Of a DNA stretch of 64,000 nucleotides, positions 866 through 39,157 are shown one piece after another; within the stretch, counting starts at the first letter, position 1; the number at the start of each line of letters is the position of its first letter. This DNA comes from Oxalobacteraceae bacterium OTU3CAMAD1 (GTDB taxonomy: Bacteria; Pseudomonadota; Gammaproteobacteria; Burkholderiales; Burkholderiaceae_D): the NCBI GenBank assembly GCA_024123915.1, contig CP099650.1:3348001-3412000 (forward strand), written 5' to 3'. The position numbers and the translations under genes are program-made. The notes beneath the pieces were generated by a model. That model was not told where the DNA came from and ran no database searches. It saw only the letters and a list, made by a program, of their open reading frames with translations.

Positions 866-1903
866 CTAGCGCAGGCTCAGCAGCGAAACCACGCGTTCGC
901 GGCTGATGCCCGCCAGCGCCGACGTGATCGACAGCAGCGACTGGTAGCCGGGCTGTTTGGCGGTCGTGACGAAATTCTGCGCGACCTGCTCCATGCCGTC
1001 GGTGGTGTCGGCCGGCACCGCGTTCTTGACCCGCGCGGCGGCCTGGTTGAGCGCCGTTTGCACCGAGGCGATCGAGCGTTCCACCTGCGACAGCGCCTGC
1101 AACACTTGCTGCAAGGTGGTGCGGATCGATTCGACGTCGGCCGTCTGCCAGTTGTCCGGATCGACCACCGGCGCCTGCGCCTCGGCCTTGACGCGGTTGA
1201 GCTGCCCGGTGGGGAAGCGCTGGCCGCCGCCCTGCACGGCGATGGTGTCGCGGAGATTGCCCCACTGCGATTCGGCGACGCTGAATTCCAGCTGGCCGTC
1301 CTCGCCCAGCGTGGTGCGCACGCCGCTTGGCGCCAGCGCGGTGTCGAAGCGCTGGGTGATCTGCTGGTCGGTCAGGCCAGGCTCAAGCACGACCGAACTG
1401 AGGTTTTGCCCGCCCAGCGAAATGGCCAGCACCTCGCGCCCGCCGGGACGCAGGTTGGTCAGGTTCATGCCGCGCACGTTGAAGCGCGTGTTGGTGGCCT
1501 GGTTGCTGAAATTGAGCTGGGAATCCAGGGTGCCGCCGGACGCCTGCGAGCGGTTGCGCCAGCTGTTGCTGAACTGGCGCACGCGCGCCTCCAGGGTGCC
1601 GTCGGCGCGCTGGCGGTTGGCCAGGCGGGCGCTCAGGTCGGCCTTCAGGTTGCGCAGCTGGGCCGCGCTCTGTTCGAGGAAGTCGAGGGCTTGCTGGGCG
1701 CCGGAAATGTCGCCCTGCAGCGGCTGGTCCATATGGGTCAGGCCGCGGCGCAACGGCGCCGCCGAGGTCGGCGTCGGGTTGACCGGGGTGGCCGTGGCCG
1801 CGTTCTCGCCATTCAGCCCGAGCGCGGTGCCGTCCACCGCGCTGGCATTGCCGGCGCCGCCGGGGACAATGACGGTGGGGGTGGGTTGGGGCGAGATTTG
1901 CAT
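866..1903 (-). CDS. Flagellin/hook-associated-like protein, LafW-type candidate
   Basis: A 345-aa protein 18 bp downstream of flgL. The C-terminal 45 residues look like a flagellin D0 helix (ending LAGISRERVVSLLSL). The central part has a heptad-like helical region (about 65-130) and a beta-rich segment (about 140-235). The first 60 residues are low-complexity (Ala/Pro/Thr-rich), and the canonical flagellin N-terminal helix is not obvious. In lateral flagellar loci a hook-associated-like gene, lafW, follows flgL, so position and C-terminus suggest that role. It could also be a minor filament or junction protein. The function is not established; the flagellar association is firm from context. 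Confidence 0.65.
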   Translation of the reverse strand: MQISPQPTPTVIVPGGAGNASAVDGTALGLNGENAATATPVNPTPTSAAPLRRGLTHMDQPLQGDISGAQQALDFLEQSAAQLRNLKADLSARLANRQRADGTLEARVRQFSNSWRNRSQASGGTLDSQLNFSNQATNTRFNVRGMNLTNLRPGGREVLAISLGGQNLSSVVLEPGLTDQQITQRFDTALAPSGVRTTLGEDGQLEFSVAESQWGNLRDTIAVQGGGQRFPTGQLNRVKAEAQAPVVDPDNWQTADVESIRTTLQQVLQALSQVERSIASVQTALNQAAARVKNAVPADTTDGMEQVAQNFVTTAKQPGYQSLLSITSALAGISRERVVSLLSLR

Positions 1904-1921
1904 ACGCTAGGGTAATAACGG

Positions 1922-2827
1922 TTACAGGACGTTGAACAACGACAGGTCGCTCACCTTGGCATAGGCTTTGTACGACGCTTCCAGCGACAAATTATACCCG
2001 GACAGCTCGGTGGCGGCCTCGGCGTAATCGAGTTGACCCAGATCCAGGATGGCGGCCTTGTTCGAGAGGCTGACGTTGGCGTGGTTGTCGTCGAGCGTCT
2101 TCATCACGTTCTGGGCGCCGCCCAGTTGGGCGATCTTGCCGGCAATCAGCTCAAGCGTGGCAGTGGCGCCGTCCATATTGTCCTTCAGCGTCGCTTGCAA
2201 GGTGGGGCTGCCGATGACGAGGGCGGGATCGGAGAGGGCGGCGATGGTGGCGTCTATCTTCGTCAGCAAGCTCTCCAGACCGCCGACGTCGACATTGACG
2301 GTCTGCGTGATGCCGTTGCCGATGACGGTTTTTTGCTGGTCCGCGTTGCCCATGTAGGTGTAGGTATCGGGCGGACCGGCGGTGACCTGGATGGGCTGGG
2401 TGCTGGTCAGCGTGCCCGAAAAGATGTAGCGGCCTTCCTGGTCCTTCTGGTTGGCGGTGTAGAGCAGGCTGTCGCGCAGCGCCGTCATGGTGCTGACCAT
2501 CGACCGGAGGTCGGCCGGCGTGTTGCTGCCGTCGGCCGCCCACACCAGCTGGTCGCTGACCGACGTGATGTCGCGCGTCATGCTGCTCAGGTATTCTTCG
2601 TTGCTGGTCAGGCGGATCTTGGTGGCCGCGATGTTTTCGCGGTACTGGCCGACGATGGCTTCTTCGCGCGTCAGGCGCGAGATGCGCACCGCGCCGATCG
2701 GGTCGTCCGACGGCACCTGGATGCGGCTGCCCGATGCCAGTTGCTCGGTAAGCTTGGAGACCCAGCTTTGGTTTTCCTGCAGGCCACGGTTCATGGTGGC
2801 CTGGAATTGACTGGAGGCGATACGCAT
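1922..2827 (-). CDS. flgL: Flagellar hook-filament junction protein FlgL (HAP3)
   Basis: A 301-aa protein with the FlgL/flagellin N-terminus (begins MRIASSQFQATMNRGL, then LTEQLASGSRI and PSDDPIGAVRI) and a C-terminal helix ending in AYAKVSDLSLFNVL. These two helices form the D0/D1 coiled core that joins the hook cap FlgK to the filament. Length is usual for the family. It starts at ATG 2827, 9 bp after flgK, in the same late transcript, which is probably driven from the sigma28-like element upstream of flgK. Confidence 0.93.
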   Translation of the reverse strand: MRIASSQFQATMNRGLQENQSWVSKLTEQLASGSRIQVPSDDPIGAVRISRLTREEAIVGQYRENIAATKIRLTSNEEYLSSMTRDITSVSDQLVWAADGSNTPADLRSMVSTMTALRDSLLYTANQKDQEGRYIFSGTLTSTQPIQVTAGPPDTYTYMGNADQQKTVIGNGITQTVNVDVGGLESLLTKIDATIAALSDPALVIGSPTLQATLKDNMDGATATLELIAGKIAQLGGAQNVMKTLDDNHANVSLSNKAAILDLGQLDYAEAATELSGYNLSLEASYKAYAKVSDLSLFNVL

Positions 2828-2836
2828 GACGTTCCC

Positions 2837-4285: not shown

Positions 4286-4316
4286 TACAAGGCGACAGCT
4301 AAGCGGACAGGATTAA
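4286..4316 (-). promoter_or_regulatory. Candidate sigma28-type promoter for flgKL
   Basis: On the minus strand TTAAT (4316-4312) is followed, 20 nt from its first base, by GTCGCCTTGTA (4296-4286). The same spacing and nearly the same boxes occur upstream of fliD and of flagellin, the other late filament genes here. The spacing equals that of the FliA consensus (TTAAAGTTT-N11-GCCGATAA), although the -10 box differs. Promoter activity is inferred. Confidence 0.55.
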
Positions 4317-4359: not shown

Positions 4360-4791
4360 TCAGGCCGCTGGTGCGGCGCCTTCCAACGGAGGCGGGGAGG
4401 CCGTGGCGGCCGCCGTTTTCGGCGGCGCCGCCACTGGTGCCGCAGCCGGCAACAGCTGGCGCAGGATGACGTCGGCCACGCCGAAGGCGCGGCGGCCGGC
4501 CATCTGGTCGGCGACCAGGTTGTCGGCCATGTCCAGCATGTCCTGGTTGACCTTGTTTTTGAAGACGCTGTCCTCGGAGGACAGCTCGCGCGTGCCCGAG
4601 CGCATCTGGTGCAGCATGTGGCTGATAAAGAAACTTTCGAACTTGACGGCGGCCTCGGTCACCTTGGCGCGGTAGGCAGGGTCCACCGTGTCGCCCGGCT
4701 GGGCTGCCACCGGCGTCACGTGCACGTCGCTGAGCTTGTCGGCGACGCCAAGCCGCAGCTTGCTGGGATCGAAGGGGGCTTGGATGCTCAT
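4360..4791 (-). CDS. flgJ: FlgJ rod-cap domain protein (no hydrolase domain)
   Basis: A 143-aa protein that corresponds only to the N-terminal rod-binding half of FlgJ: KVTEAAVKFESFFISHMLHQMRS, then SEDSVFKNKVNQDMLDMADNLV and a membrane-proximal helix. The tail (about 110-143) is Ala/Pro-rich low complexity. Two-domain FlgJ proteins carry a C-terminal peptidoglycan hydrolase; here that domain is absent and a separate glucosaminidase-type gene lies at 13791-14585 in the same flagellar region. It starts at ATG 4791, 11 bp after flgI. Its expected role is to cap the growing rod in the periplasm. Confidence 0.88.
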   Translation of the reverse strand: MSIQAPFDPSKLRLGVADKLSDVHVTPVAAQPGDTVDPAYRAKVTEAAVKFESFFISHMLHQMRSGTRELSSEDSVFKNKVNQDMLDMADNLVADQMAGRRAFGVADVILRQLLPAAAPVAAPPKTAAATASPPPLEGAAPAA

Positions 4792-4802
4792 GGGAATTCC
4801 TG

Positions 4803-5924
4803 TTAGATGACGACCAGTTCGCCTTCGATGGCGCCGGCGTGGTCCAGCGCCTGCAGGATCGCCATGATGTCGTCGGGCGAGGCGCCCAGGCTGTTGATGA
4901 CGTCGATGATGCCTTGCAGCTTGGCGCCGGCCGGCCAGTTGAACATCTGGCCCGAGCCCTGGTCCACGCTGACCTGCGATTGCGGCGTGGCCACGGTGTT
5001 GCCGGCGGCCAGGGCGTTCGGTTGGCTGACCTTGGTGCTCTCGGAAATCACCACCTTGAGCGAGCCATGGGTGACGGCGGCCGCGCGCACGCGCAGGCCC
5101 TCGGCGATGACCACGGTGCCGGTGCGCGAATTGAACACCACTTTCGGGGAATCGTCGCCAACGTCGATCGACAGCGCCTCGAGCTTGGCCATGAAGGCGA
5201 TGCGCTGGGTCGGGTTGGCCGGGGCCACCACGTCGACGCTGGTGGCGTCGCTGGCGGTGGCGATGTCGCCGAAGCGCTTGTTGATCGAATCGACAATATT
5301 AATCGCGGTCTGGAAGTGCGGATGGCGCAGCGACAGGCGCACGCTCGGCTTGGTGGCGAAATCGCTGGCGATCTCGCGCTCGATGGCCGCGCCGCTGGGG
5401 ATGCGGCCGGAGGTCGGGGTGTTGACGGTCACCGACGAGCCGCTCTTGCCCTGGGCGCTGAAGCCGCCGACGACCACGTTGCCCTGGGCCAGCGCATAGA
5501 CTTCGTTGTCGGCCGCGCGCAGCGGGGTCAGCAGCAGGGCGCCGCCGCGCAGGCTCTTGGCGTCGCCCATCGAGGAGACCACCACGTCGATATTCTGGCC
5601 CTTGCGGTAGCCGGGCGGGAACACCGCCGACACCATCACGGTGGCGACGTTTTTCGACTTGGCGTCGGTGCCGTCGGGCACCTTGACGCCGAACTGCTTG
5701 AGCATGTTGATGACGGACTGGCTGGCGAACTTGACCTGGGTCGAGTCGCCGCTGCCGTTCAGGCCCACCACCAGGCCGTAGCCGACCAGCGGATTGTCAC
5801 GCATGCCTTCGACGGCGACCAGGTTGCGCAGCACTTGCGCGGCTTGGGCCGGCAGCGTCGCGGTCAACGTCAGGCACAGCGCCAAAGGCAGGGCGAGAAT
5901 GCGGTGCAGCTTGCGGAAGTTCAT
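4803..5924 (-). CDS. flgI: Flagellar P-ring protein FlgI
   Basis: A 373-aa periplasmic protein that forms the P-ring bushing around the rod in the peptidoglycan layer. The N-terminus is a Sec signal peptide (hydrophobic [16 protein letters not shown], Ala-X-Ala-like end), followed by [29 protein letters not shown], a hallmark of FlgI. The end, [23 protein letters not shown], is also typical. ATG 5924 is chosen over the in-frame TTG at 5933 because it begins directly with the basic signal-peptide region. It is followed by flgJ after 11 bp. Confidence 0.95.
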
Positions 5925-5972
5925 GATGTTCAATCCAAATAGTGTACTGGTGACAACTTAAAACGGCCACTG

Positions 5973-6647
5973 TTAAAACGGCATGTACGGACCGGTGAAG
6001 AAGCGCGACAGCCAGCCGGCCGATTGCGTATCGGCCAGGGTGCCCTGCGCCGAGTAGGCGATGCGGGCGTTGGCGATGCGCAGCGACGAGACCTGGTTGT
6101 TGGCGTCGATGTCGGCCGCGCGCAGGTAGCCGCGCAGGCGGACGAATTCCTCGCCCTGGTTCAGCGTCAGCGTTTTTTCGCCGGACACGCGCAGCAGCCC
6201 GTTCGGCAGCACTTCCTGCACGATCACGGTGATGGCGCCGGTCAAAGCGTTCTGTTGGGTGCTGGTGGCGTCGCCGGCGAAGTTGCTCGACGAACCCAGG
6301 CCGATGGAGGCCTTGGGGAACACCTTGCCCAGCAGGCTGGGCGCGTTGATGTTGTTGTCCGAATCCTTGGAATAGCTGGTGCCGGCGCGTTTGCTGGCCT
6401 GCGTGGTTTCCTGCAGGCTCACGGTGACGACGTCGCCGACGCGGAAGGCGCGGCTGTCGGAGGTCAGCGACAGGCCCAGGTCGGCGCTGTAGACGCCGCC
6501 CGAGCTGCCCTTCGGTCCCATCACGCGCGAGATCGTCGGCGCCTCGTCGGACGGGCCGGGGCGCACCGGCGGCGGTTGGATCGCGGCACACCCGGCCAGC
6601 AGCGAGGCCGCGACCACCAGTGCCAGGGTGTGCAATGCGGCTTTCAT
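5973..6647 (-). CDS. flgH: Flagellar L-ring lipoprotein FlgH
   Basis: A 224-aa outer-membrane lipoprotein that forms the L-ring. The signal peptide ends in the lipobox LLAGC, giving a predicted acylated cysteine near residue 20. The mature part shows the FlgH pattern: RVGDVVTVSLQETTQA, a conserved LLG(K)VFP stretch, ITVIVQEVLPNGLLRVSGEK and LRGYLRAADI. The ATG at 6647 overlaps the flgG stop (ATGA), so translation is probably coupled. A longer frame runs upstream, but the lipobox position fixes this start. Confidence 0.95.
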   Translation of the reverse strand: MKAALHTLALVVAASLLAGCAAIQPPPVRPGPSDEAPTISRVMGPKGSSGGVYSADLGLSLTSDSRAFRVGDVVTVSLQETTQASKRAGTSYSKDSDNNINAPSLLGKVFPKASIGLGSSSNFAGDATSTQQNALTGAITVIVQEVLPNGLLRVSGEKTLTLNQGEEFVRLRGYLRAADIDANNQVSSLRIANARIAYSAQGTLADTQSAGWLSRFFTGPYMPF

Positions 6648-7438
6648 CAGCGTGCCGCCTGCGCCAGGTATTGCAGCATATTGTCGGCGGCCGACAGCAC
6701 CTTGGTGTTCATCTCGTAGGTGCGCTGGGCGGCGATCATGTCGACCATTTCCTCGACCACTTGCACGTTCGAGCCTTCCAGCGTGCCTTGCTTGAGCTTG
6801 CCCCACTGGGCGGTGCCCGGCGCGCCTTCGGTCGGCGTGCCGCTAGAGGCGGTCTCGGCGAACAGGTTCTCGCCCAGCGCCATCAGGCCGGTCGGGTTGA
6901 TGAAGCTGGTCAGGGTCAACTGGCCCAGCTGGCTCGGGGTGGCGGTGCCGGCGATCGTGGCCGAGACGGTGCCGTCCTCGCCGATGGTCAGCGCGGTGGC
7001 GTTGGGTGGCACGGTGATCTGTGGAATCAGCGGCAGGCCGTGGGCGTTGACCAGGATGCCGTTGGCGTCGACCTGCAACTGGCCGGCGCGGGTGTAGGCG
7101 GTCTCGCCGTTAGGCTGGCGCACGGCCATGAAACCGTTGCCCATGACGGCGACGTCGAGGTCGCGGCCGGTGGTTTGCAGGCTGCCGTTGGTGAACACTT
7201 TTTGCGTGCCGACCATGTGCACGCCGTTACCGAGCTGCACGCCCGACGGCGCCAGCGTGTTGTTGTCGGCCACTTGCGCGCCCGGCTGCTGTTCGATCGA
7301 GTAGAACAGATCCTCGAACACCACGCGGTCGCGCTTGAAGCCGACGGTGTTGGCGTTGGCGAGGTTGTTGGCGATCGCTTGCAGTTTCTGGTCTTGCGCT
7401 TGCACGCCGGTCTTGCTGATCCACATTGCTGGGTTCAT
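6647..7438 (-). CDS. flgG: Flagellar distal rod protein FlgG
   Basis: A 263-aa distal rod subunit. The N-terminus (WISKTGVQAQDQKLQAIANNLANANTVGFK) carries the rod/hook ANNLAN motif, the next segment has the FlgG-specific DLFY region, and the C-terminus has LEGSNVQVVEEMVDMIAAQRTYEMNTKVL. The length of about 260 aa is standard. FlgG builds the straight distal rod through the P- and L-rings. It begins 30 bp after flgF and its stop overlaps the flgH start. Confidence 0.96.
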   Translation of the reverse strand: MNPAMWISKTGVQAQDQKLQAIANNLANANTVGFKRDRVVFEDLFYSIEQQPGAQVADNNTLAPSGVQLGNGVHMVGTQKVFTNGSLQTTGRDLDVAVMGNGFMAVRQPNGETAYTRAGQLQVDANGILVNAHGLPLIPQITVPPNATALTIGEDGTVSATIAGTATPSQLGQLTLTSFINPTGLMALGENLFAETASSGTPTEGAPGTAQWGKLKQGTLEGSNVQVVEEMVDMIAAQRTYEMNTKVLSAADNMLQYLAQAAR

Positions 7439-7468
7439 GTATTGCTCCTGTTGGGTCTTTGGATCAGC

Positions 7469-8194
7469 TTAGCCGCTGATCAGGCGGTTACCGGTTTCGG
7501 CCATCGAATCGCTGGCCTTGAATAATTTCATCTGGATTTCGAACGTGCGGTTCAGGCTCATGGTGGCGACCATTTCCTCCACCGCCGAGACGTTGCTGCC
7601 CTCGAGGTGGCCGGCGCGGATCACGACGGTCGGATCGGTGGCCAGCGGCACGCCGTCGCGGGCGATCAGCAGGCCCGCTTCGTTCTTGGTCAGCTCGGAC
7701 GCCTCGGCCTTGACCAGGCGCAGCTTGTCGACCGTTTGCATGGTCGTCGTGCCCGGGTTCTGGATCGAAATGGTGCCGTCGGCGCCGATGTCGATCTTGC
7801 TGTATTCGGGCAGGGTGATCGGACCGCCTTCGCCCAGCACCACGTTGCCGTTGATGCGCAAGGTGCCGTTCTCGTCGAGCGCCATGTTGCCGGCGCGGGT
7901 GTAGGCCTCGCCGGTCGGACCGTCGACGGCCAGGAAGCCGGCGCCGGAGACGGCCACGTCGAGCTCGCGGCCGGTGGCCTTGAGCGTGCCCTGTTTGGTC
8001 GACACCGAGTTCGCCTGCAACTGCGACATGTGGCGGTCGTCGTAGCCGTAGCCTTGCACGGTTTGCGCCGTCGCCAGCTCCATATTGGCGCGGAAGCCGC
8101 CCGTGTCGATGTTGGCCAGGTTGTTGGCCCGCACCTGTTGTCCGCGCAGGGCCCGTTCGGCCCCGCTTACCGCTGTATAAAGCAACGCGTCCAT
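7469..8194 (-). CDS. flgF: Flagellar proximal rod protein FlgF
   Basis: A 241-aa proximal rod protein: MDALLYTAVSGAERALRGQQV, then RANNLANIDTGGFRANM, and the C-terminal LEGSNVSAVEEMVATMSLNRTFEIQMK. Similarity to FlgG is strong in both terminal helices, but the N-terminus and shorter length fit FlgF. It follows flgE after 14 bp in the same leftward operon. The role is structural, between the MS-ring-proximal rod (FliE, FlgB, FlgC) and FlgG. Confidence 0.94.
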   Translation of the reverse strand: MDALLYTAVSGAERALRGQQVRANNLANIDTGGFRANMELATAQTVQGYGYDDRHMSQLQANSVSTKQGTLKATGRELDVAVSGAGFLAVDGPTGEAYTRAGNMALDENGTLRINGNVVLGEGGPITLPEYSKIDIGADGTISIQNPGTTTMQTVDKLRLVKAEASELTKNEAGLLIARDGVPLATDPTVVIRAGHLEGSNVSAVEEMVATMSLNRTFEIQMKLFKASDSMAETGNRLISG

Positions 8195-8208
8195 GGCTTA
8201 GTCGTTCC

Positions 8209-9447
8209 TTAGATCGCTTGCATCAGCGATTGCAGCATCGTGCTCTCGGTCTGGATGACCTTCGAGTTCGCCTGGTAGTTGCGCTGCGAAGTCATCAGGC
8301 CGACCAGTTCGGACGTGATGTCGACGTTGGACTGCTCCAGCGACGAGGTGTTGATGTTGCCGCCCATGCCCACGCCCGGGGCGTTGACCAATGGCGTGCC
8401 GGAGTTGATCGACTCGATCCAGCTGGTGCCGTCGATGGCTTGCAGCGAGCCTTCGTCCGGGAAGGTGGCGATCGCCAGGCGGCCGACGGCTTGCTTCTGG
8501 CCGTTGTTGTAACTGGCGATGACGGAACCGTCGGTGCCCAGCGCGATGCCGGTGAAGGTGCCGGCCGCGTAGCCGTCGGCGGCGTTGGCGGTGGTGGTCG
8601 CTTCGCCGGCGAAGCCGGTGGTGCCGGTGTAGTCGATGTCGACCGCGCTGAGCGTCGCGCCGTTGGAAACGGTGATCGGTGCCAGGTTCACTTGGAACTT
8701 GCCGGTGGCGGGAGCAGTCAGCTGTCCGGTGGTGGGGTTGAACGTCAGCTGGGTGGTCCCGGTGACGCCCTGAACCTCAGTCCCGTCGAGCACGAAGTGG
8801 ACATTGACGGTGTTGGCGGCGCCTTGTGCGAAATACTGGGTCAAGGTGTGTTTGCCACCCAGGCTGTCGTACACGACCGAGGCCTTGGACATGTTGAAAG
8901 TCGCAGGGTCGGCCGGGGCGGCAGGAGTGACGCCGGGCGCAACCGGCCAAGCGCCGGTCGGCGTCGTCCAGTCGGCCGACATATTGCCGACGTAATCGAC
9001 GTTCTTCGAGACCACGGCCGGGATCGAGCCGGTCGGGATCGGCACGTCGCCCAAGGCGCCCAAGGTCGTCGTGCCTTGTTTGATCGGATAGCCCTGCACC
9101 TTGCGGCCGGTGGCGTCGACCAGGAAACCGTCCTTGGAGGCGTCGAAGATGCCAACGCGGGTGTATTCGGTCTGGCCGGTGTTCTGGTCCTTCGTGACGA
9201 AGAAACCGCGGCCGTTGATCGAGGCGTCGAGCGCGCGGCCGGTGTTCAGCACGCCGCCCTGTTTGCCGATGCTCTGCGTGGTCGAACCGATCATGACGCC
9301 GGTCTGGACGTCGCCCGAGACCAGCGACGAGAAGTTGGCGCGCGACGACTTGTAGCCGTAGGTGCCGGCGTTGGCGATGTTCTGGCTGGTGCTGTTCAGC
9401 GATTCGTTGATGGCCTGGATGCCAGACAATGCGATATCGAAACTCAT
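8209..9447 (-). CDS. flgE: Flagellar hook protein FlgE
   Basis: A 412-aa hook subunit with N-terminal FDIALSGIQAINESLNSTSQNIANAGTYGYK and C-terminal SLEQSNVDITSELVGLMTSQRNYQANSKVI, the two halves of the D0 coiled core. The central part (about 90-370) forms the exposed hook domains and is rich in Thr/Gly/Ala. The length is near that of enterobacterial FlgE. Length control is expected from the FliK encoded at 18661-20121. flgD is 24 bp upstream. Confidence 0.95.
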   Translation of the reverse strand: MSFDIALSGIQAINESLNSTSQNIANAGTYGYKSSRANFSSLVSGDVQTGVMIGSTTQSIGKQGGVLNTGRALDASINGRGFFVTKDQNTGQTEYTRVGIFDASKDGFLVDATGRKVQGYPIKQGTTTLGALGDVPIPTGSIPAVVSKNVDYVGNMSADWTTPTGAWPVAPGVTPAAPADPATFNMSKASVVYDSLGGKHTLTQYFAQGAANTVNVHFVLDGTEVQGVTGTTQLTFNPTTGQLTAPATGKFQVNLAPITVSNGATLSAVDIDYTGTTGFAGEATTTANAADGYAAGTFTGIALGTDGSVIASYNNGQKQAVGRLAIATFPDEGSLQAIDGTSWIESINSGTPLVNAPGVGMGGNINTSSLEQSNVDITSELVGLMTSQRNYQANSKVIQTESTMLQSLMQAI

Positions 9448-9471
9448 GATGGAGTCCTTCCTAAGTAAAGA

Positions 9472-10143
9472 TTATTGAATGGCAGAGGCGGATTTGCCGT
9501 TGAAGGCGGTAATCGAGGTCGGCGCGATCTCGCCGATGTTGCTGACGTTGAGCACCACGCCGCCGTTGGCCGACAGGCGCACGCTGTTGAGGCGGCCCTG
9601 GACGTCGACCGGCGGGGCTTCCTTGGAACTGGTCTCGACCGACAGCTTGTAGGTGCCGGCGGGAATCTTCATGCCGGCCGTATCGATCGTGAACGGCACC
9701 GTGCCGGCCGCCTGCGTGCCCAGCTTGACCGTGTATTTCGTGCCGTCGTCGCCGGTCAGCACGACGCTGGTCGCGCTGCTGGAGGCGGCGAGGGTGGTCT
9801 GGCCGCTGATGGCCGTTTTGCCATCGATTTTGACGGTGCCGGATTCGGCCATGACGTCCGAGCCGACCTGGGCGCCCAGCGAGATCACTTGCATGCTTTG
9901 CAGTACGCTGGAGTTGGCGCTGGTGAGCTGCGACAGGTTCTGCAAGGCCTCGGTCTGCGACAGCTGCGTCAGCTGTTGCACGAACTGCGACGGATCGGTC
10001 GGCGACAGCGGGTCCTGGTTCTGGATCTGCGCCACCAGCAATTTGGTGAACATGTCCGACGAGGCGCTGGCGGCGTTGCCGGTGACGCTGGTGCCGCCGT
10101 TGCCGGCGCTGGCGCTGCTGTTGTTGAGTAGACTGACTGCCAT
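9472..10143 (-). CDS. flgD: Flagellar hook cap/scaffold protein FlgD
   Basis: A 223-aa hook-capping protein. The N-terminal region has the conserved DMFTKLLVAQIQNQDPLSPTDPSQFVQQLTQLSQTEAL segment, which is diagnostic for FlgD. The C-terminal half is beta-rich (FLG-Tudor/Ig-like fold, about 110-220). FlgD is placed at the hook tip and supports FlgE polymerisation. The start ATG 10143 lies 3 bp after the flgC stop, so the genes are tightly linked. Confidence 0.94.
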   Translation of the reverse strand: MAVSLLNNSSASAGNGGTSVTGNAASASSDMFTKLLVAQIQNQDPLSPTDPSQFVQQLTQLSQTEALQNLSQLTSANSSVLQSMQVISLGAQVGSDVMAESGTVKIDGKTAISGQTTLAASSSATSVVLTGDDGTKYTVKLGTQAAGTVPFTIDTAGMKIPAGTYKLSVETSSKEAPPVDVQGRLNSVRLSANGGVVLNVSNIGEIAPTSITAFNGKSASAIQ

Positions 10144-10146
10144 GGC

Positions 10147-10569: not shown

Positions 10570-10640
10570 CGGTTACTCCGTGGTTGATGCGGGCGATGGT
10601 GCGGTCCACTGCGGCGGCCGGGATCATGGCGACGGCGTGC

Positions 10641-11003: not shown

Positions 11004-11048
11004 AGTCTTCCCCTGTCCAAATTCAGGCTGCGTTGCTAAAAAACGGTG

Positions 11049-11089
11049 TTGCATGAGTGCAAAACGTTACCGTCAATGTAAAATGACGG
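11049..11089. promoter_or_regulatory. Two inverted repeats between flgB and flgA
   Basis: TTGCA-N4-TGCAA (11049-11062) and CCGTCA-N8-TGACGG (11070-11089) lie in the divergent control region of the flgB operon and flgA. They could be operators or RNA hairpins. No clear sigma70, sigma54 or sigma28 promoter could be assigned with confidence here. Confidence 0.4.
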
Positions 11090-11140
11090 CACAGCGGTTT
11101 AACTACCATCGCTCTCCGCATCATAGTAGAGGTATTGCCC

Positions 11141-15317: not shown

Positions 15318-15369
15318 ACGTGTGCCTCTGCTTGGCTTGGTTTCCATACGATATCTTTAATGTTACCGC

Positions 15370-30077: not shown

Positions 30078-30850
30078 CCTGGAGTGTGACGACGCGGTGG
30101 CGCCGGCCCGGCCTCGCCGCCGCCGCCGTGGTGGCGACCGGGCTGACCCTGGCCCTGGCGCCGGGCGCCGCCCAGGCGGTCGACCTGCTGGCCAACGTGG
30201 TGCCGGGAGCGCGCACCGAGTTGACGGTCAAGATGCAAATCCTGATCATCATGACGTTGCTGGGCTTGCTCCCAGTGATGGTCATGATGATGACCAGCTT
30301 TACCCGCTTCGTCATCGTCTTGTCGCTGCTGCGCCAGGCGCTGGGCCTGCAACAGGGCCTGCCCAACCGGGTGATCACCGGCGTCGCCCTGATCCTGACG
30401 CTGCTGGTGATGCGCCCGATCGGCGACCAGATCTGGACAGACGCCTTCGTGCCCTACGACCAGGACAAGATCAGCCTGGAGACGGCGCTGCAAATCGCCG
30501 AAAAACCCATTTCCCGCTTCATGCTGGCGCAAACGAGCAAGGCCGCGCTGCAGCAGATCGCCCACCTGGCCGGCGAGGGCAAGGTCGCCACGCCGGCAGA
30601 GCACGCGTTCACGGTCAAGCTGGCCGCGTTCGTGCTGTCGGAGTTGAAGACCGCGTTCCAGATCGGCTGCATGCTGTTCATCCCGTTTTTGGTGATCGAC
30701 CTGGTGGTGTCGTCGGTGCTGATGGCGATGGGTATGATGATGCTGTCGCCGCTGGTCATCTCGCTGCCGTTCAAGCTGCTGCTGTTCGTGCTGGTCGACG
30801 GCTGGACCCTGACCGTCAACACGCTCGTCACCAGCGTGCAGGCGTATTAG
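30074..30850 (+). CDS. fliP: Flagellar export gate protein FliP
   Basis: A 258-aa protein with a cleavable signal peptide (LAAAAVVATGLTLALAPGAAQA) followed by the FliP core: MTLLGLLPVMVMMMTSFTRFVIVLSLLRQALGLQQGLPNRV and, near the end, FQIGCMLFIPFLVIDLVVSSVLMAMGMMML. It forms the export channel with FliQ and FliR. fliO normally sits between fliN and fliP; here fliP begins inside the fliN stop codon, so there is no room for it. Confidence 0.96.
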   Translation: MTWSVTTRWRRPGLAAAAVVATGLTLALAPGAAQAVDLLANVVPGARTELTVKMQILIIMTLLGLLPVMVMMMTSFTRFVIVLSLLRQALGLQQGLPNRVITGVALILTLLVMRPIGDQIWTDAFVPYDQDKISLETALQIAEKPISRFMLAQTSKAALQQIAHLAGEGKVATPAEHAFTVKLAAFVLSELKTAFQIGCMLFIPFLVIDLVVSSVLMAMGMMMLSPLVISLPFKLLLFVLVDGWTLTVNTLVTSVQAY

Positions 30851-30874
30851 ATAGTGTATTGAGATAGGCAAACC

Positions 30875-31147
30875 ATGCTGACTCCCGAAGTTGCCGTCGA
30901 CCTGGTGGTCGAATCGCTGCATATCGTCATGCTGCTGGTGATCCTGCTGGTGGTGCCCGGCCTGATCATGGGCTTGCTGGTGGCGCTGGTGCAGGCGGCC
31001 ACGCAAATCAACGAACAGACGCTCAGTTTCCTGCCCAGGTTGCTGGTCACCCTGCTGGCCATCATTTTGATGGGCCGCTGGATGGCCGGCTACCTGATGG
31101 ACTTCTGCGTCTCCATTTTCACCCGCGCCGCCACCCTGGTCGGCTAG
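30875..31147 (+). CDS. fliQ: Flagellar export gate protein FliQ
   Basis: A 90-aa protein with two membrane helices (IVMLLVILLVVPGLIMGLLVALVQA and LLVTLLAIILMGRWMAGYLM) around the conserved QAATQINEQTLSFLPRL loop. The size and sequence are standard for FliQ. It lies 24 bp after fliP. Confidence 0.95.
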   Translation: MLTPEVAVDLVVESLHIVMLLVILLVVPGLIMGLLVALVQAATQINEQTLSFLPRLLVTLLAIILMGRWMAGYLMDFCVSIFTRAATLVG

Positions 31148-31169
31148 CGGCGTCCGCCCACCACCCGAC

Positions 31170-31958
31170 ATGGAACCGGTCCTGGCCCAGCTGCTGCCGA
31201 TGCTCACCGCCATCTGGTGGCCGTTCTGCCGCATCCTGGCGATGTTCATCGGCGCCCCGGTGCTGGGCGAGGCCGTCACGCCGGTGACGGTGCGCATCCT
31301 GATCGCGCTGGTGCTGGCGGTGCTGATGCTGCCGGCCACAGGCGGCGTGGGCGGCTATAACATCGACCCGTTTTCGATGCACGGCGTGGTCGCCACCATC
31401 GAGCAGGCGCTGATCGGCTTCGTGCTGGGGCTGGCGTTCCACTTCGCCATGTCGGTCATCGGCGTGCTCGGCTTCATGGTGTCGTCGCAGATGGGCTTTT
31501 CGATGGCGGTGATGAACGACCCGATGAACGGCCAGTCGTCGGACGTGGTCTCGGCGCTGCTGTCGGTGCTGTCGATCATCGTGTTCTTCGCCATCGACGG
31601 CCACCTGGTGATCTCCAACATCATCGGCCAGAGTTTCCGCGCCTGGCCGCTGGGGCAGGGCTACACGCCGATGCTGCTCAACGCCGTGGCCTACAACGTC
31701 GCCTGGATCTTCTCGGCGGCGATGCTGCTGGCGATCCCCATCGTGTTTTCCACCCTGGTGGTGCAGCTCGGCTTCGGCTTCCTCAACCGCGTCGCGCCCA
31801 GCCTGAATTTGTTCGCGCTGGGCTTCTCGGTGATCACCATCTTCGGCTTGCTGATGCTGGCCGAGGTGGTGCGCTTCATTCCCGAGCACTACGTGCGCAT
31901 GACCAACCAGGTGCTGGAGCTGATCCGCCAGCAGATGCAGGTGGCCGCCAATGGCTGA
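31170..31958 (+). CDS. fliR: Flagellar export gate protein FliR
   Basis: A 262-aa integral membrane protein with about six to eight helices. Typical FliR segments are FCRILAMFIGAPVLGEAVTPVTVRILIALVLAVLML, FVLGLAFHFAMSVIGVLGFMVSSQMGFSMA and LGFGFLNRVAPSLNLFALGF. The end overlaps the flhB start by 8 nt, as is common, and implies coupled translation. Confidence 0.95.
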   Translation: MEPVLAQLLPMLTAIWWPFCRILAMFIGAPVLGEAVTPVTVRILIALVLAVLMLPATGGVGGYNIDPFSMHGVVATIEQALIGFVLGLAFHFAMSVIGVLGFMVSSQMGFSMAVMNDPMNGQSSDVVSALLSVLSIIVFFAIDGHLVISNIIGQSFRAWPLGQGYTPMLLNAVAYNVAWIFSAAMLLAIPIVFSTLVVQLGFGFLNRVAPSLNLFALGFSVITIFGLLMLAEVVRFIPEHYVRMTNQVLELIRQQMQVAANG

Positions 31959-33090
31959 CGACAGCACCGGCGATAAAACAGAAAAGGCTTCACAACAGAA
32001 GCTCAAGAAGTCGCGCGACGAAGGGCAGGTGGTCCGCTCGCGCGACCTGTCGACGGCCATCGGCATCCTCGTTAGCTTGAAACTCTTTGTCTACCTGCTG
32101 CCGAACTACATGGCCGACTTCAACGAGATTTTCCACCAGAGCTTCGCGCCGTTCGACAGCGTCGGCTCGATCGACAACGCCATGTCCACCGTGTTCGGCA
32201 GCGCCATGCTGCTGTTCATCAAGATGGTGCTGCCGCTGTTTGTGGTGCCGCTGTTCATCGTGCTGGGGGCGATGGTGCCGGGCGGCTGGGTGATGACCAC
32301 GAAGCACTGGGCGCCCAAGTTGAGCCGCATGAGCCCGGCCGCCAACCTGGGCCGGCTGTTCGGCGCCAAGCACGCTTTCGAGCTGCTGGTGTCGATCGCC
32401 AAGGCCGGCGTGCTGATCTCCGTGCTCATCCACGTGGCGCGCTCGACGGTGAAGGATTACACGCAGCTGCAGCATATGCCGATGGGGCAGGCGATGATGA
32501 ACGGCTCGAACCTGATGCTCGACGGCCTGATGGCGCTCATCGCCGTGTTCGTCATCTTTGCGCTGATCGACGTGCCGGCGCAGGCCTTCTTCTTCGCCAA
32601 GCAGCAGCGCATGAGCAAGCAGGACCAGAAGGAGGAGCACAAGTCGACCGAGGGCCGGCCAGAGGTGAAAGGGCGGATCCGCCAGCTGCAGCGCGCGCTG
32701 GCGCGCAACAGCGCCCGCAAGACCGTGCCCAGCGCCGACGTCGTCATCGTCAACCCGGAGCACTACGCGGTCGCGCTCAAATACGACCACGACCGCGCCG
32801 AGGCGCCGTACGTGGTGGCCAAGGGCGTCGACGAGATGGCGCTCTACATCCGCCAGATCGCCACCGAACACAAGATCGAAGTGATGGAGCTGGCGCCGCT
32901 GGCGCGCGCCATCTACAACACCAGCCAGGTCAACCAGCAGATCCCCGTGCAGCTGTACCAGGCGGTCTCGCAGGTGCTGAACTATGTGCTGCAATTGAAA
33001 GCATTCCGTACCGGGCGGCGCGCCGCGCAGCCGGCGTATCCAAGTGAAGTCGTCGTACCAACATCCATGAGCGAGGTTAAGCAGTCATGA
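31951..33090 (+). CDS. flhB: Flagellar export switch protein FlhB, with NPEH instead of NPTH
   Basis: A 379-aa protein with an N-terminal membrane domain of four helices (about 30-215) and a cytoplasmic autocleavage domain. The N-terminus KTEKASQQKLKKSRDEGQVVRSRDL is typical. The cleavage site reads VNPEHYAVALKYD, with Asn268-Pro269-Glu270-His271; almost all FlhB proteins have NPTH. The Asn and Pro required for cleavage are present. FlhB switches export from hook to filament substrates together with FliK. It overlaps flhA by 4 nt (ATGA). Confidence 0.95.
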   Translation: MADDSTGDKTEKASQQKLKKSRDEGQVVRSRDLSTAIGILVSLKLFVYLLPNYMADFNEIFHQSFAPFDSVGSIDNAMSTVFGSAMLLFIKMVLPLFVVPLFIVLGAMVPGGWVMTTKHWAPKLSRMSPAANLGRLFGAKHAFELLVSIAKAGVLISVLIHVARSTVKDYTQLQHMPMGQAMMNGSNLMLDGLMALIAVFVIFALIDVPAQAFFFAKQQRMSKQDQKEEHKSTEGRPEVKGRIRQLQRALARNSARKTVPSADVVIVNPEHYAVALKYDHDRAEAPYVVAKGVDEMALYIRQIATEHKIEVMELAPLARAIYNTSQVNQQIPVQLYQAVSQVLNYVLQLKAFRTGRRAAQPAYPSEVVVPTSMSEVKQS

Positions 33091-35174
33091 ATTTTTTCCA
33101 GCGGTTGATCGCCGAAGCGCGTCGCCACAAGTTCGCCACACCAATCTTCCTGTTGGTGATCCTGGCGATGATCATCCTGCCGTTGCCGCCGATACTGCTG
33201 GACGTGATGTTCACGTTCAACATCGTGCTGGCCCTGATCGTCATCATGGTGGCGGTCTCGGCCAAGCGGCCGCTGGACTTCTCGGTGTTCCCGACGGTGA
33301 TCCTGGCCACCACCATGCTCAGGCTGACGTTGAACGTGGCCTCGACCCGGGTGGTGCTGCTGCACGGCCATGAAGGCACGGCCGCGGCCGGCGAGGTGAT
33401 CGAAGCCTTTGGCGAGGTCGTCATCGGCGGCAACTACGTGGTCGGTATCGTGGTGTTCGTGATCCTGATGATCATCAACTTCATGGTGGTAACCAAGGGC
33501 GCCGAGCGCATCTCCGAGGTGTCCGCGCGCTTCACCTTGGACGCCTTGCCGGGCAAGCAGATGGCGATCGACGCCGACCTCAACGCCGGCCTGATCAACC
33601 AGGAGAAGGCCCAGGCGCGGCGCAAGGACGTCGCCGCCGAGGCCGACTTCTACGGCGCCATGGACGGCGCCTCCAAGTTCGTGCGCGGCGACGCCGTCGC
33701 CAGTATCCTGATTCTGATCATCAACATGGTCGGCGGCGTGGCGATCGGCTCGATCATGCAGGACATGTCGTTCGGCGACGCCTTCAAGCAATACGCGCTG
33801 CTGACCATCGGTGACGGCCTGGTGGCGCAGATCCCGGCGCTGCTGCTGTCGGCCGCCTCGGCCATCCTGGTGACGCGCATCTCCGACTCGGGCGACTTCG
33901 AGAAGCAGGTCGGCGACCAGGTGCTGACGTCGCCGCAGGTGATGTTCAGCGCCGCCGGCATGATGCTCATCCTGGCCGTGGTGCCGGGCATGCCGTGGCA
34001 GATGTTCACCCCGTTCGCGCTGGTGCTGGCCTATGTCGGCTGGAAGCTGGGGCAGGTGGTCAAGGCGCCGGACACCTCCGGCATCGATGCCATCGAGGCG
34101 GCGCTGCGCGACGACCGCGCGCCCGAGCTCGACTGGCACAGCCTGCCGGCGGTGCAGCAGTTGCAGGTCGCGCTGGGTTACAAGCTGGTCAGCCTGATCG
34201 ACAAGACCCACGGCGAGCCGCTGACCAAGCGGGTGCGCGGCGTGCGCCAGAGCCTGTCCGAATCGATGGGCCTGCTGCTGCCGCCGATCGTCGTGCGCGA
34301 CGACCTCGGCCTCAAGCCGTCGCAGTATTCGGTGATGCTCTCGGGCAGCGTGGTGGCCCAGGCCGAGGTGTTCGCCGACCGCCTGATGGCGATCCCGTCG
34401 CCGAATGTGTACGGCCAGATCGACGGCATCCCCGGCATCGAGCCGGCCTACGGCATGCCGGTGACGTGGATCGAAACGAGCGAGAAGGCCAACGCGCTGG
34501 GGCTGGGCTACCAGGTGGTGGAGGCGCCGAGCGCGATCGCCACCCACCTGTCCAAGCTGATCCGCGAATACCTGCCCGAGCTGTTCCGCCACGAGGACGT
34601 GCCGGCGCTGATGGACCGGTTAACGGCCCTGTCGCCCAAGCTGTCGGCCTCGCTGGACAAGGCGCTGACGCACACGCAGATGCTGCGCGTATTCCGCGTG
34701 CTGCTGGCCGAGAACGTGTCGCTGAAGGATATCGTGCCGATCGCCACCACGCTGGTCGACAGCTCGGAGACCACCAAGGACCCGATCCTGCTGGCGGCCG
34801 AGGTGCGCTGCGCGCTGCGGCGTCAGATCGTCACCGGCCTGTTCGGGCAAAAGACCGAGATGCTGGCGTTCAACCTCGGCGGCGACCTGGAGAACATGTT
34901 GCTGGGCTCGTTGAACCAGGCGCGCCAGAGCGGCAAGGTGGTGCTGGACAACTACCCGATCGACCCGCACCTGCTGGCGCAGCTGCAGATGAACATGCCG
35001 GTGGCGCGCGAGCAGATGAAGCAGCAGGCCACGCCGCCGCTGCTGCTGGTGCTGCCGCAGATCCGGCCGCTGCTGGCGCGCTACGCGCGCCTGTTCGCGC
35101 CGGGCCTGCACGTGCTGTCGTACAACGAGATCCCGGAGAACCGCGAAGTGAGCATCATCGGCACGGTCGGCTGA
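33087..35174 (+). CDS. flhA: Flagellar export gate protein FlhA
   Basis: A 695-aa protein: eight membrane helices in the first 330 residues, with the conserved FHIPEP-family loop (AKRPLDFSVFPTVILATTMLRLTLNVASTR and RFTLDALPGKQMAIDADLNAGLI), and a cytoplasmic C-domain (about 350-690) that receives chaperone-substrate complexes. The length is normal. It is the last gene of the rightward fliM-flhA run; the next feature is the palindromic repeat at 35215. flhF and flhG, often next in polar systems, are absent. Confidence 0.96.
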   Translation: MNFFQRLIAEARRHKFATPIFLLVILAMIILPLPPILLDVMFTFNIVLALIVIMVAVSAKRPLDFSVFPTVILATTMLRLTLNVASTRVVLLHGHEGTAAAGEVIEAFGEVVIGGNYVVGIVVFVILMIINFMVVTKGAERISEVSARFTLDALPGKQMAIDADLNAGLINQEKAQARRKDVAAEADFYGAMDGASKFVRGDAVASILILIINMVGGVAIGSIMQDMSFGDAFKQYALLTIGDGLVAQIPALLLSAASAILVTRISDSGDFEKQVGDQVLTSPQVMFSAAGMMLILAVVPGMPWQMFTPFALVLAYVGWKLGQVVKAPDTSGIDAIEAALRDDRAPELDWHSLPAVQQLQVALGYKLVSLIDKTHGEPLTKRVRGVRQSLSESMGLLLPPIVVRDDLGLKPSQYSVMLSGSVVAQAEVFADRLMAIPSPNVYGQIDGIPGIEPAYGMPVTWIETSEKANALGLGYQVVEAPSAIATHLSKLIREYLPELFRHEDVPALMDRLTALSPKLSASLDKALTHTQMLRVFRVLLAENVSLKDIVPIATTLVDSSETTKDPILLAAEVRCALRRQIVTGLFGQKTEMLAFNLGGDLENMLLGSLNQARQSGKVVLDNYPIDPHLLAQLQMNMPVAREQMKQQATPPLLLVLPQIRPLLARYARLFAPGLHVLSYNEIPENREVSIIGTVG

Positions 35175-37190: not shown

Positions 37191-38141
37191 TCATGCGGTT
37201 TCCGCAAAAACATCGTCCGGCGGCAGCGGCTGCGACAGCATGACCGCCATCTCGGCCATGGCTTTGAAGACGGCCGGCGTCAGCGCCGCCGTGTGGGCGC
37301 GGGTGGGGTAGGGGTGCTCGCTGCTGGTCGGCGGCAGTTCGCGCCGCAGGCGGCAGCGCAATATCGTCAGGCCGCAGCGGCCCACCATCGCCGCCAGATG
37401 CGGCAGGATTTCCCGCATGTGCTGCATGGCCGAGGTGTGCGCCGCGCCCACTTCCATGATGACGCCGTTGCCGGCCGCCGGTTCCATCTGGATGACGACC
37501 CGGCCCAGGCCGGGCAGCATCAGTTCGAGCCGCAGCGCCACGCGCGAGCGCTTGCGGCGCTGGCGCGCCGGTTCCTCGTCGTCGTTGACGACCACGCGCA
37601 GCACCAGCCGTTCGGCGCCCCAGGCGAACACGGCGAAGCGCCACGGTTCCATTTCCGTCACCAGCGGCAGGCCGGGACGGCCCTCGCGCAGCGCCGACGG
37701 CGTGTGGTCGGCCATGAACAGGCTCGACGGGACGTGCTGGCCGCTGGCCTGTTCCAGCCAAGCGGCGCGCTGCTCGCCGTAGGCGCGCACCATGGTTTGC
37801 CACGAGCCGGCCATCATGGCCGTGTCCGGCGGTTGCCAGACCAGCTGGCGCGACATGAAGACCTGGTTGGGCCGCATCGCCGACGGCTCGGCCATGTCGG
37901 CAAGATTGTTGAGCGCGGCGGCCAGGGCGTCGAGTCCGGACTGCGGCAGCGGTTGGGCGTCGGGGCCGTCGAACAGCGCGCCGACGCGGCCCGGGCCGGC
38001 GGGCGCCAGCGGCGTGACCGGGTACGGGGCGTTGCTGTCGCGCGCGTCGATCGGTCCGCGCACGGACGGGCCTGGCTGTCCGGCTTGCCGATCTGGGATG
38101 CTCAGGGGGCGCAAGGTGGCGCCGACGCGGTCTACGGCCAT
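37191..38141 (-). CDS. Protein with FliK-like C-terminal domain
   Basis: A 316-aa soluble protein between chrA and flagellin. The C-terminal third resembles the FliK switch domain (LRLELMLPGLGRVVIQMEP, then GVIMEVGAAHTSAMQHMREILPHLAAMV and GLTILRCRLRREL): a beta-alpha-alpha-beta pattern like that of the FliK encoded at 18661. The N-terminal half (about 1-110) is Pro/Ala-rich, and a DDEEPARQRRKRSR basic patch precedes the domain. It could be a second hook-length or filament-related regulator. The assignment rests on the visible pattern and location and needs structural comparison. Confidence 0.55.
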   Translation of the reverse strand: MAVDRVGATLRPLSIPDRQAGQPGPSVRGPIDARDSNAPYPVTPLAPAGPGRVGALFDGPDAQPLPQSGLDALAAALNNLADMAEPSAMRPNQVFMSRQLVWQPPDTAMMAGSWQTMVRAYGEQRAAWLEQASGQHVPSSLFMADHTPSALREGRPGLPLVTEMEPWRFAVFAWGAERLVLRVVVNDDEEPARQRRKRSRVALRLELMLPGLGRVVIQMEPAAGNGVIMEVGAAHTSAMQHMREILPHLAAMVGRCGLTILRCRLRRELPPTSSEHPYPTRAHTAALTPAVFKAMAEMAVMLSQPLPPDDVFAETA

Positions 38142-38178
38142 CAGGCTCGCTCTTTAATGTGGCTGATTCGATTCGGTG

Positions 38179-38210
38179 AAAAAAAAGCCAACCGAAAACT
38201 CCGGTTGGCT
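38179..38210 (-). terminator. Rho-independent terminator of the flagellin gene
   Basis: On the minus strand the stem AGCCAACCG/CGGTTGGCT with a 7-nt loop is followed by eight U residues, 42 nt after the flagellin stop. It separates flagellin from the FliK-like gene. Confidence 0.9.
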
Positions 38211-38251
38211 CCTTGTTTTCCCGTCCCGCGCGCGGAACGGAAAGGCTACGA

Positions 38252-39157
38252 TTATTGCAGCAAGGACATAACCAGGGACGACGTGCTGTTCGACTGCTTC
38301 AGCATCGCGGTACCGGCTTGCAGCAGCATCTGGCTGGAAGTCATGTTCGACGATTCGGTCGCGAAGTCGGTGTCCATGATACGGCCAGTTGCCGCTTTCG
38401 TGTTGCTCGAAATGTTGGACAGGTTGTTGTAGATGTGATCCAGACGGTTCGAGGCAGCGCCCAGCGACGAACGGATGCCGCCGACCTGGTCGATTGCGGT
38501 GCTGATGGTGTCGATGGTGTTGTTGGCCGCGGTTTGACCGGCTGCATTGCTGGCCGAGGCGGTACCGTCGGTGCCGTCCGAGATTTCGGTGCCGACAGCG
38601 GCGCCGCCGGCGGCGTAGCGTGCGGAGACGGCGGTCAGGGCGGTGCCGGTCAGGGCGGTCATGGCGGTCGACAGGTCGATCGTCATTTGCTCGGACTTGG
38701 TGGCGCCGATCTGGAACGTCATCGACGCTGCAATGGTGCCGCCGTCCATCAGCTTGGCGCCGCCGAAGGTGCTGTTTTTCATTACGTTGTTCAATTCGCT
38801 ACCCAGCGCGTCGAACTCCGACTGCAGTGCAGCCTGGTCTTTTGCGGTCGACGAGGCGTCGGCTGCCTGGGTGGCCAGGTCTTTCATGCGGATCAGCATG
38901 TTGGTGACTTCGTCAAACGCGCCTTCGGCCGTTTGCAGCATCGAGATCGAATTCTGGGTGTTGCGCATGGCCATGGCCATACCGCTCGATTGTGCTTTCA
39001 GGCGGGTTGCAATCTGCAGGCCGGCAGCATCGTCCATCGCCGAGTTGACACGGAAGCCGGTGCTCAGGCGGGTCTGCGAGGTCGACAGCGACGACTGGGT
39101 GCGCGAGATCGAGTTTTGTGCCGAAAGGGCGGAAGAGTTGGTGTGAAGGCTCAGCAT
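38252..39157 (-). CDS. fliC: Flagellin (lateral type)
   Basis: A 301-aa flagellin with complete N- and C-terminal D0/D1 helices: LHTNSSALSAQNSISRTQSSLSTSQTRLSTGFRVNSAMDDAAGLQIATRL and, at the end, RLDHIYNNLSNISSNTKAATGRIMDTDFATESSNMTSSQMLLQAGTAML. The central variable part is short (about 150-225). ATG 39157 has CAGGAG 8 nt upstream. The gene stands alone, with its own terminator and a late-promoter-like motif 60 nt upstream. FliS (20428) and FliD (20875) are its expected partners. It is the only flagellin in the window. Confidence 0.95.
   Translation of the reverse strand: MLSLHTNSSALSAQNSISRTQSSLSTSQTRLSTGFRVNSAMDDAAGLQIATRLKAQSSGMAMAMRNTQNSISMLQTAEGAFDEVTNMLIRMKDLATQAADASSTAKDQAALQSEFDALGSELNNVMKNSTFGGAKLMDGGTIAASMTFQIGATKSEQMTIDLSTAMTALTGTALTAVSARYAAGGAAVGTEISDGTDGTASASNAAGQTAANNTIDTISTAIDQVGGIRSSLGAASNRLDHIYNNLSNISSNTKAATGRIMDTDFATESSNMTSSQMLLQAGTAMLKQSNSTSSLVMSLLQ

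Follow-up and report, generated by a model that had tools for sequence, protein, structure and literature searches.

We analysed a stretch of 64,000 nucleotides from Oxalobacteraceae bacterium OTU3CAMAD1, here called the window, which corresponds to positions 3348001-3412000 of a single 7,481,272-base contig (CP099650.1). Positions 866-39157 of the window carry a flagellar locus in which nearly all open reading frames (ORFs) were assigned to flagellar families in Pfam and NCBIfam searches (Table 1). Its left part holds a minus-strand block, flgL-K-J-I-H-G-F-E-D-C-B, and then flgA on the plus strand. From left to right there follow flgN-flgM-motB-motA-sigma28-fliL-fliK-fliT-fliS-fliD and fliJ-I-H-G-F-E, all on the minus strand, fliM-N-P-Q-R-flhB-flhA on the plus strand, and finally a chromate transporter gene, a gene for a FliK-domain protein and fliC, again on the minus strand. 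The original prediction had described this region as a near-complete secondary flagellar system of the lateral (Flag-2) type, with a single flagellin, its own sigma28/FlgM pair and its own MotAB. All flagellar genes that it named are present there as open frames, and family searches placed both regulatory proteins and both motor proteins within the locus. On the sequence evidence set out below, the locus very probably encodes a second flagellum that is complete and self-contained and belongs to the lateral/Flag-2 family.

A separate primary flagellum in the same genome

The description of this system as a secondary one depended on a primary system elsewhere in the genome, and a separate primary set was indeed found. 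The genome has two FlhA genes (FHIPEP) and two FliF genes, located in the window and in a region at 2.006-2.062 Mb, where the primary FlhA lies at 2007325, FliF at 2049394 and FliC at 2061359. Counterparts of 37 of the 39 Escherichia coli K-12 flagellar proteins queried were found in this primary region, and none for flhC or flhD. A Flagellin_N scan of the genome gave four matches, namely two FlgL proteins and two flagellins, one per system, in agreement with the predicted single lateral flagellin. The presence of a primary system alongside is shared by other carriers: a primary FlhA was found, in two cases in pieces, in all 42 genomes asked (42 of 80 lateral loci). Four genomes (G667, G679, G686 and G687) show a third FlhA-like frame besides the primary and lateral ones, with 40-43% identity to the primary FlhA of the strain studied here.

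Relation to E. coli Flag-2

We compared 40 window ORFs by BLAST with the Flag-2 proteins of E. coli ET350, the primary proteins of K-12 and the strain's own primary region. Thirty-six of them match Flag-2, each better than either primary set; 28 of these have a second match in the own primary region, in every case at a lower bit score, and the other eight match Flag-2 only. Four ORFs have no Flag-2 match, namely those for the glucosaminidase, the DUF3300 protein, the FliK-domain protein and the LafW-like protein. Identity of FlhA to its E. coli Flag-2 counterpart is 58%, as compared with 43% to both the own and the K-12 primary protein, and identities to Flag-2 reach 65% for FliI, 61% for FliP and 54% for MotA. 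FliG and FliM are divergent. Among named FlhA proteins, the closest comes from Duganella sp. CF517 (99%).

The protein at 866-1903 has no Pfam or NCBIfam match at E<=0.001. Comparison with E. coli Flag-2 LafW by hhalign gave 96% (E 2.5e-9) and 97.7% (E 1.5e-12), whereas the FlgL, FliD and FliK controls stayed below 1% and E. coli FlgL reached 1.2%; on the strength of the LafW match, we rejected the view that this protein is unrelated to flagella. The locus thus has a LafW-like gene after flgL, as well as a fliD-S-T-K-L run with its own sigma28 and MotAB.

The trees proposed with the original prediction gave the grouping it expected, as both FlhA (65 rows of 174 extracted) and FliF (24 rows) group with E. 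coli Flag-2 and not with primary proteins. In the FlhA tree, 28 lateral rows lie on one side of a branch with a Shimodaira-Hasegawa-like approximate likelihood ratio (SH-aLRT) support of 98, and together with two E. coli Flag-2 rows they form a group of 30 rows with a support of 100. The own primary FlhA falls with other betaproteobacterial primaries and K-12 (19 rows, support 100). The lateral FlhA lies outside this primary group and apart from the FlhA sequences sampled across the class.

Distribution and conservation

The lateral system is not rare in the family. A lateral FlhA, 76-100% identical to that of the window, was found in 80 of 294 sampled family genomes, the next best match being 49%. 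By genus code, the carriers are 23/26 genomes of g1, 26/26 of g6, 10/17 of g12, 20/26 of g19 and one genome of g24. A draw of 370 genomes from the class contained one carrier besides the window's own genome (G537, 71%), and in this draw and an order draw of 201 genomes around G512 no other full-length FlhA exceeded 50%; FlhA fragments at contig ends in G785 (56%) and G833 (63%) were left unclassified. Named carriers among the best 80 of 332 matches belong to Duganella, Rugamonas, Janthinobacterium, Pseudoduganella and Massilia, and further ones to Undibacterium, Chromobacterium, Jeongeupia, Ideonella and Aquabacterium.

In all ten relatives compared, the detected genes keep the same order across 40 kb. 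Seven gene calls are missing (flgH and flgN in G219, flgB in G106, flgM and fliJ in G263, flgL and fliJ in G280). The DUF3300 gene was not detected in any of these ten relatives and is regarded as an insertion, and the chromate transporter gene occurs in five of the 80 loci (L003, L004, L012, L013 and L016).

Late-gene promoters

Upstream of fliC, the relatives share a conserved block of the form TTTAAT-N14-16-GGTCGYCTTGTA, and a predicted lateral sigma28-type promoter, T/CTTAAT-N15-16-GGTCGYCTTGTA, precedes fliC, fliD and flgK. The three exact -10 boxes in the window lie before these three genes and account for three of the eight in the 7.48 Mb genome. Among 74 fliC upstream regions from 61 loci, 65 contain the box within two mismatches and 71 contain TTAA-N-GYCGYC. 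For flgK and fliD in 11 genomes, the window's included, 7/22 regions have the box within one mismatch as compared with 0/371 regions upstream of the other genes in the cluster, and 11/22 as compared with 11/371 within two. The remaining exact boxes were considered as regulon members and mostly rejected: those at 1463122, 4005288 and 5258650 lie inside coding sequence, and that at 4011212 is intergenic but not flagellin-like.

The promoters of the own primary fliC and flgM read TAAAG-N15-CCGTTA, and the 80 kb primary region contains no GTCGYCTTGTA. Canonical sigma28 boxes (TAAA-N-GCCGAWA) were not found in the window apart from two loose, unconvincing matches. The lafA promoter of E. coli Flag-2 has the form TTTAA-N15-GTCGTTTT. 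We infer that the locus uses a private lateral sigma28 promoter, unlike the primary one, as a predicted function. In the proposed sequence of events, the export gate FlhA/B-FliPQR would build the lateral hook-basal body; once the hook is finished, FlgM would leave and the lateral sigma28 would switch on three late operons, fliC(-fliK2), fliD-S-T-K-L-sigma28-motA-motB-flgM-flgN and flgK-flgL-lafW, through the private form T/CTTAAT-N15-16-GGTCGYCTT. Because this form is unlike the primary one, the two systems would be insulated from each other at the sigma step.

Evidence against and alternative explanations

Several points weigh against a lateral flagellum with late promoters of its own. The named gammaproteobacterial lateral references were the E. 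coli Flag-2 genes only, and the FliF tree, in its agreement with the FlhA tree, holds two primary rows only and has long branches. The lafK gene, whose place in E. coli Flag-2 is between fliE and fliM, was found in none of the 80 loci (fliE and fliM were both seen in 76), and lafZ, another gene of E. coli Flag-2, is missing from the window locus. As regards the promoters, the -10 motif was initially recognised from the regions of fliC and fliD, with flgK as the confirming case; the eight exact boxes in the genome equal the eight matches of a reversed control pattern, a count that is not unusual; and the fliD regions of G106, G203, G263, G280 and G537 and the flgK regions of G048 and G201 show at least four mismatches. 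It is the placement of the exact boxes, not their number, that is unusual.

Could the locus have arisen by an old duplication of the betaproteobacterial primary flagellum, passed on vertically since then, and not belong to the lateral family? The same gene order is kept across several Oxalobacteraceae genera and beyond, as such a duplicate would allow, yet both the FlhA identities given above and the FlhA tree, in which the 28 lateral rows join Flag-2 with a support of 100 and stand apart from 18 betaproteobacterial primaries, make this origin highly improbable. That the locus is degenerate or silent, as reported for E. coli Flag-2 (accessible part of PMC4481668), would fit the divergent FliG and FliM and the two insertions. 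We consider this improbable: as far as family matches tell, the flagellar frames of the window are all intact, relatives from other genera share both the promoter elements and the order of the genes, and deletion of lafA in Burkholderia dolosa altered swimming, according to the part of PMC5773237 at hand.

A further alternative concerns the promoters only, namely that the primary FliA recognises the GGTCGYCTTGTA promoters and that both systems share one late-gene sigma factor. While the box and its spacing do resemble general sigma28 promoters, this is rather unlikely given the different promoters of the own primary fliC and flgM and the lack of GTCGYCTTGTA in the primary region. Moreover, three genomes without the lateral system contain two, two and three exact boxes, and none of the six inspected (of seven) precedes a flagellin, although one of them (L242, in G271) lies between genes and has CTTAAT 11 bases ahead of it. 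We retain a lateral flagellum whose late genes would be read by its own sigma28.

Early regulation and motor

LafK in the locus is typical of lateral systems but not defining, because the lateral system of Plesiomonas functions without it (PMC4481668 and PMC11242183, both available in part). A search of the genome with E. coli LafK gave 12 matches to sigma54 activators at E<=1e-40, graded from 147 to 216 bits, and singled out no orthologue among them. A consensus scan of positions 1-41500 for sigma54 promoters yielded weak matches, none of them convincing in the gap between fliE and fliM. As the locus has no LafK, its early genes would answer to a different regulator.

An LSQxEIDxL-like motif near the N terminus of FliM, which we take to be the CheY-binding motif, was found in none of 78 lateral orthologues; the own primary FliM and K-12 FliM have it and that of E. 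coli Flag-2 does not. Since FliM lacks this motif, the lateral motor is probably not steered by CheY, as expected for surface motility. In a single alignment of four sequences, MotA R90/E98 are replaced by A/D and FliG D289/R297 by M/P, while MotB D32 is kept (K-12 numbering). The MotA and FliG positions (within window 15370-17320 and 24921-25964) are altered together both here and in E. coli Flag-2. These joint changes possibly reflect a re-built contact between stator and rotor. As the context of MotB Asp32 is kept, protons probably drive the motor. The description of lateral motors in the accessible part of PMC8042155 agrees with a proton-driven motor free of CheY control.

A giant repeat gene with two types of upstream box

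One exact lateral box lies outside the flagellar cluster and 3.2 Mb from it, at 104644, 307 bases upstream of a giant repeat gene (Table 1). PF20080 (ALTTAQ) was matched above its cut-off in both scanned parts of the 3858 residues, the N-terminal 600 and the C-terminal 579; EF-hand matches there remained below cut-off, and no named adhesin domain was found in these parts. Directly downstream lie genes of the HlyB type (below the curated cut-off) and HlyD type (above it). From its size, repeats and neighbours, the product would be a surface adhesin.

In ten orthologues from ten genomes, two conserved blocks stand out upstream in otherwise drifting DNA. The distal block, AAGTTTACTTAGTGGAAG-N-GGTCGCCTTGTA with variants, is of the lateral type. 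The proximal block, some 70-125 bases downstream of it, reads TAAAGTT-N-GACGTTAA and is spaced like the primary sigma28 promoter. We scored 30 upstream regions of such repeat genes, leaving out those cut by contig ends. The lateral-type box was present within one mismatch in 8 of the 23 regions from 15 genomes with the lateral system and within two mismatches in 13, two of which (G155 and G235) lack the upstream block and are probably chance matches. It was found in none of the seven regions from four genomes without the lateral system, six of which come from three genomes of one genus and possibly reflect one loss. The primary-type box occurs within one mismatch in 16 of the 23 regions and in five of the seven. 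Mononucleotide shuffles gave the lateral box in 0.5% (one mismatch) and 7.4% (two mismatches) of cases and the primary box in 2.1%. A single block in G166 and G254 scores as both types alike. In G260 and G271, which have no lateral system, the block GTTTACTTAATG is kept and then followed by GCCGTTA in place of GTCG.

A second giant repeat gene of the same family (locus L304, from G000:C1:54076 onward on the plus strand, open frame of about 4544 amino acids) has neither sigma28-type box, which speaks against a simple family-wide rule. We also rejected the idea that the repeat gene travels with the lateral system: among 80 genomes, from which 15 of the 26 g6 genomes had been dropped, matches occurred in 19 of 64 with the system and 6 of 16 without.

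We tentatively propose, at close to but short of even chances, that in Duganella the giant repeat gene has tandem sigma28 promoters, a distal lateral and a proximal primary one. Either flagellum could then call for its product, probably a surface adhesin, and in lineages without the lateral system the primary promoter alone would remain. For their own late genes the two flagella would have separate wiring, and one surface protein would be the point at which they are joined.

Further features of the locus

The protein at 37191-38141 has orthologues in 59 loci. Of 23 aligned orthologues, 22 match Flg_hook (best E 2.2e-8), with the window protein itself below cut-off (E 3.3e-4), and hhalign found no significant similarity to the lateral FliK; Pfam thus argues for a true second FliK and hhalign does not. 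The separate glucosaminidase is 45% identical to K-12 and own-primary FlgJ across about half its length. The 105-residue FliT/LafD-like protein had no Pfam match, and its identity is drawn from its location and from a weak match. For the flagellin, 39157 is the most likely start, and a longer ORF of 330 residues is over-extended.

Several tandem lateral flagellin genes occur in G203 and G148, about 2-5 kb downstream of the lateral flhA, in L039 and L050 and in other Janthinobacterium loci; a row of four lateral-type boxes, spaced by about 1.1 kb, is seen in G203 and G148. Adjoining the lateral cluster, an EAL ORF at window 1-743 is the end of a 743-residue protein (G000:C1:3346512-3348743), the domain of which points to cyclic di-GMP turnover. 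A tandem pair of tRNA-Val (gac) genes lies at window 54677-54919.

Table 1. Coordinates of the flagellar locus, its predicted promoter elements and the giant repeat gene (window positions unless a contig is given; aa, amino acids)
Feature	Position	Strand	Basis or remark
LafW-like hook-associated protein, 345 aa	866..1903	-	hhalign to E. coli Flag-2 LafW; in 10/10 syntenic relatives
flgL; flgK	1922-2827; 2837-4207	-	TIGR02550, TIGR02492 above cut-off
Lateral sigma28-type -10 box GTCGCCTTGTA upstream of flgK	4286..4296	-	CTTAAT at -35
flgJ (rod domain only), flgI, flgH, flgG, flgF, flgE, flgD, flgC, flgB	4360..11054	-	
flgA	11135..11890	+	ChapFlgA
DUF3300 protein (insertion)	11988..13721	+	Undetected in 10 syntenic relatives
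Glucosaminidase, separate FlgJ-type hydrolase	13791..14603	-	PF01832
flgN, flgM (anti-sigma28)	14572..15347	-	
motB/lafU, motA/lafT	15370..17320	-	motB: best NCBIfam match LafU PRK06778, below its cut-off
Lateral sigma28 (lafS)	17376..18131	-	48% to E. coli Flag-2 sigma; 35% to own primary FliA
fliL, fliK	18144..20370	-	fliK start uncertain: raw ORF overlaps fliT
fliT/lafD-like chaperone, 105 aa	20118..20435	-	Position; 25% to same-slot E. coli Flag-2 gene
fliS, fliD	20428..22290	-	
Lateral sigma28-type -10 box GTCGCCTTGTA upstream of fliD	22330..22340	-	TTTAAT at -35 not clear
fliJ, fliI, fliH, fliG, fliF, fliE	22470..28149	-	fliE start re-set from 28299 to 28149
Divergent fliE/fliM intergenic region	28150..28819	.	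No lafK; no convincing sigma54 promoter match
fliM, fliN, fliP, fliQ, fliR, flhB, flhA	28820..35174	+	FliM without CheY-binding motif
Chromate transporter gene (insertion)	35805-37166	-	Between flhA and FliK-domain gene
Second protein with FliK-type C-domain	37191..38141	-	Flg_hook; directly downstream of fliC
Lateral flagellin fliC/lafA, 301 aa	38252..39157	-	48% to E. coli LafA
Lateral sigma28-type promoter of fliC, TTTAAT-N15-GTCGTCTTGTA	39217..39248	-	
Giant ALTTAQ-repeat protein, 3858 residues	G000:C1:92761-104337	-	PF20080

Comparison with known systems

Lateral flagella of betaproteobacteria have already been published, and the kind of system described here is known. In the parts of the sources at hand, LafA homologues are named in Duganella and Janthinobacterium (PMC5773237), polar and lateral flagella are described in Janthinobacterium (PMC8929069), two flagellar clusters are reported for strain HH01 (PMC3566124), and acquisition of a lateral system by a betaproteobacterium through transfer is mentioned with reference to Liu and Ochman 2007 (PMC8042155). 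Our literature search found no published consensus for a lateral sigma28 promoter, which is not proof of its absence, no description of the promoter split or of the link to the repeat protein, and no paper on ALTTAQ. The system is ordinary for its family, yet it offers a clean case of one cell keeping two flagella apart. The boxes that its two sigma28 factors appear to read are visibly different, and the insulation could therefore be tested by promoter swaps. The promoter region of the giant repeat gene provides a testable claim tying swimming, surface movement and attachment, for which genomes that have no lateral system provide a natural control.

The Flag-2 system of E. coli ET350 has the same parts, including LafW, the same operon fliD-S-T-K-L-sigma-motA-motB, a FliM without the CheY motif and a lafA promoter of the TTTAA-N15-GTCG form. 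Unlike in the original prediction, the gene order does not follow that of E. coli Flag-2, as the window locus lacks lafK and lafZ, has its flagellin beside flhA and carries flgMN behind motB. A separate glucosaminidase and a second FliK-domain protein are present in the window and not in E. coli Flag-2.

The lateral flagella of Plesiomonas shigelloides likewise have no lafK and are known to be functional; FliAL there controls fliC, flgMN, flgKL and the fliD operon, similar to the operons marked by promoters here (accessible parts of PMC4481668 and PMC11242183). Plesiomonas is, however, a gammaproteobacterium, and the likeness is drawn from published descriptions. The putative lateral flagella of Burkholderia dolosa share a betaproteobacterial lateral flagellin with the present system and differ in that the flagellin lies by fliM and that fliL and fliT were not found there; the part of PMC5773237 available to us contained no description of their late-gene promoters. 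The giant repeat protein would resemble FrhA of Vibrio cholerae, a large adhesin at the cell surface with a link to type I secretion and under flagellar control there (PMC6890996, available in part). Unlike FrhA, it is made of ALTTAQ repeats (PF20080), and whereas FrhA is tied to one flagellar hierarchy, the gene for the giant repeat protein is preceded by two sigma28-type boxes matching the two systems.

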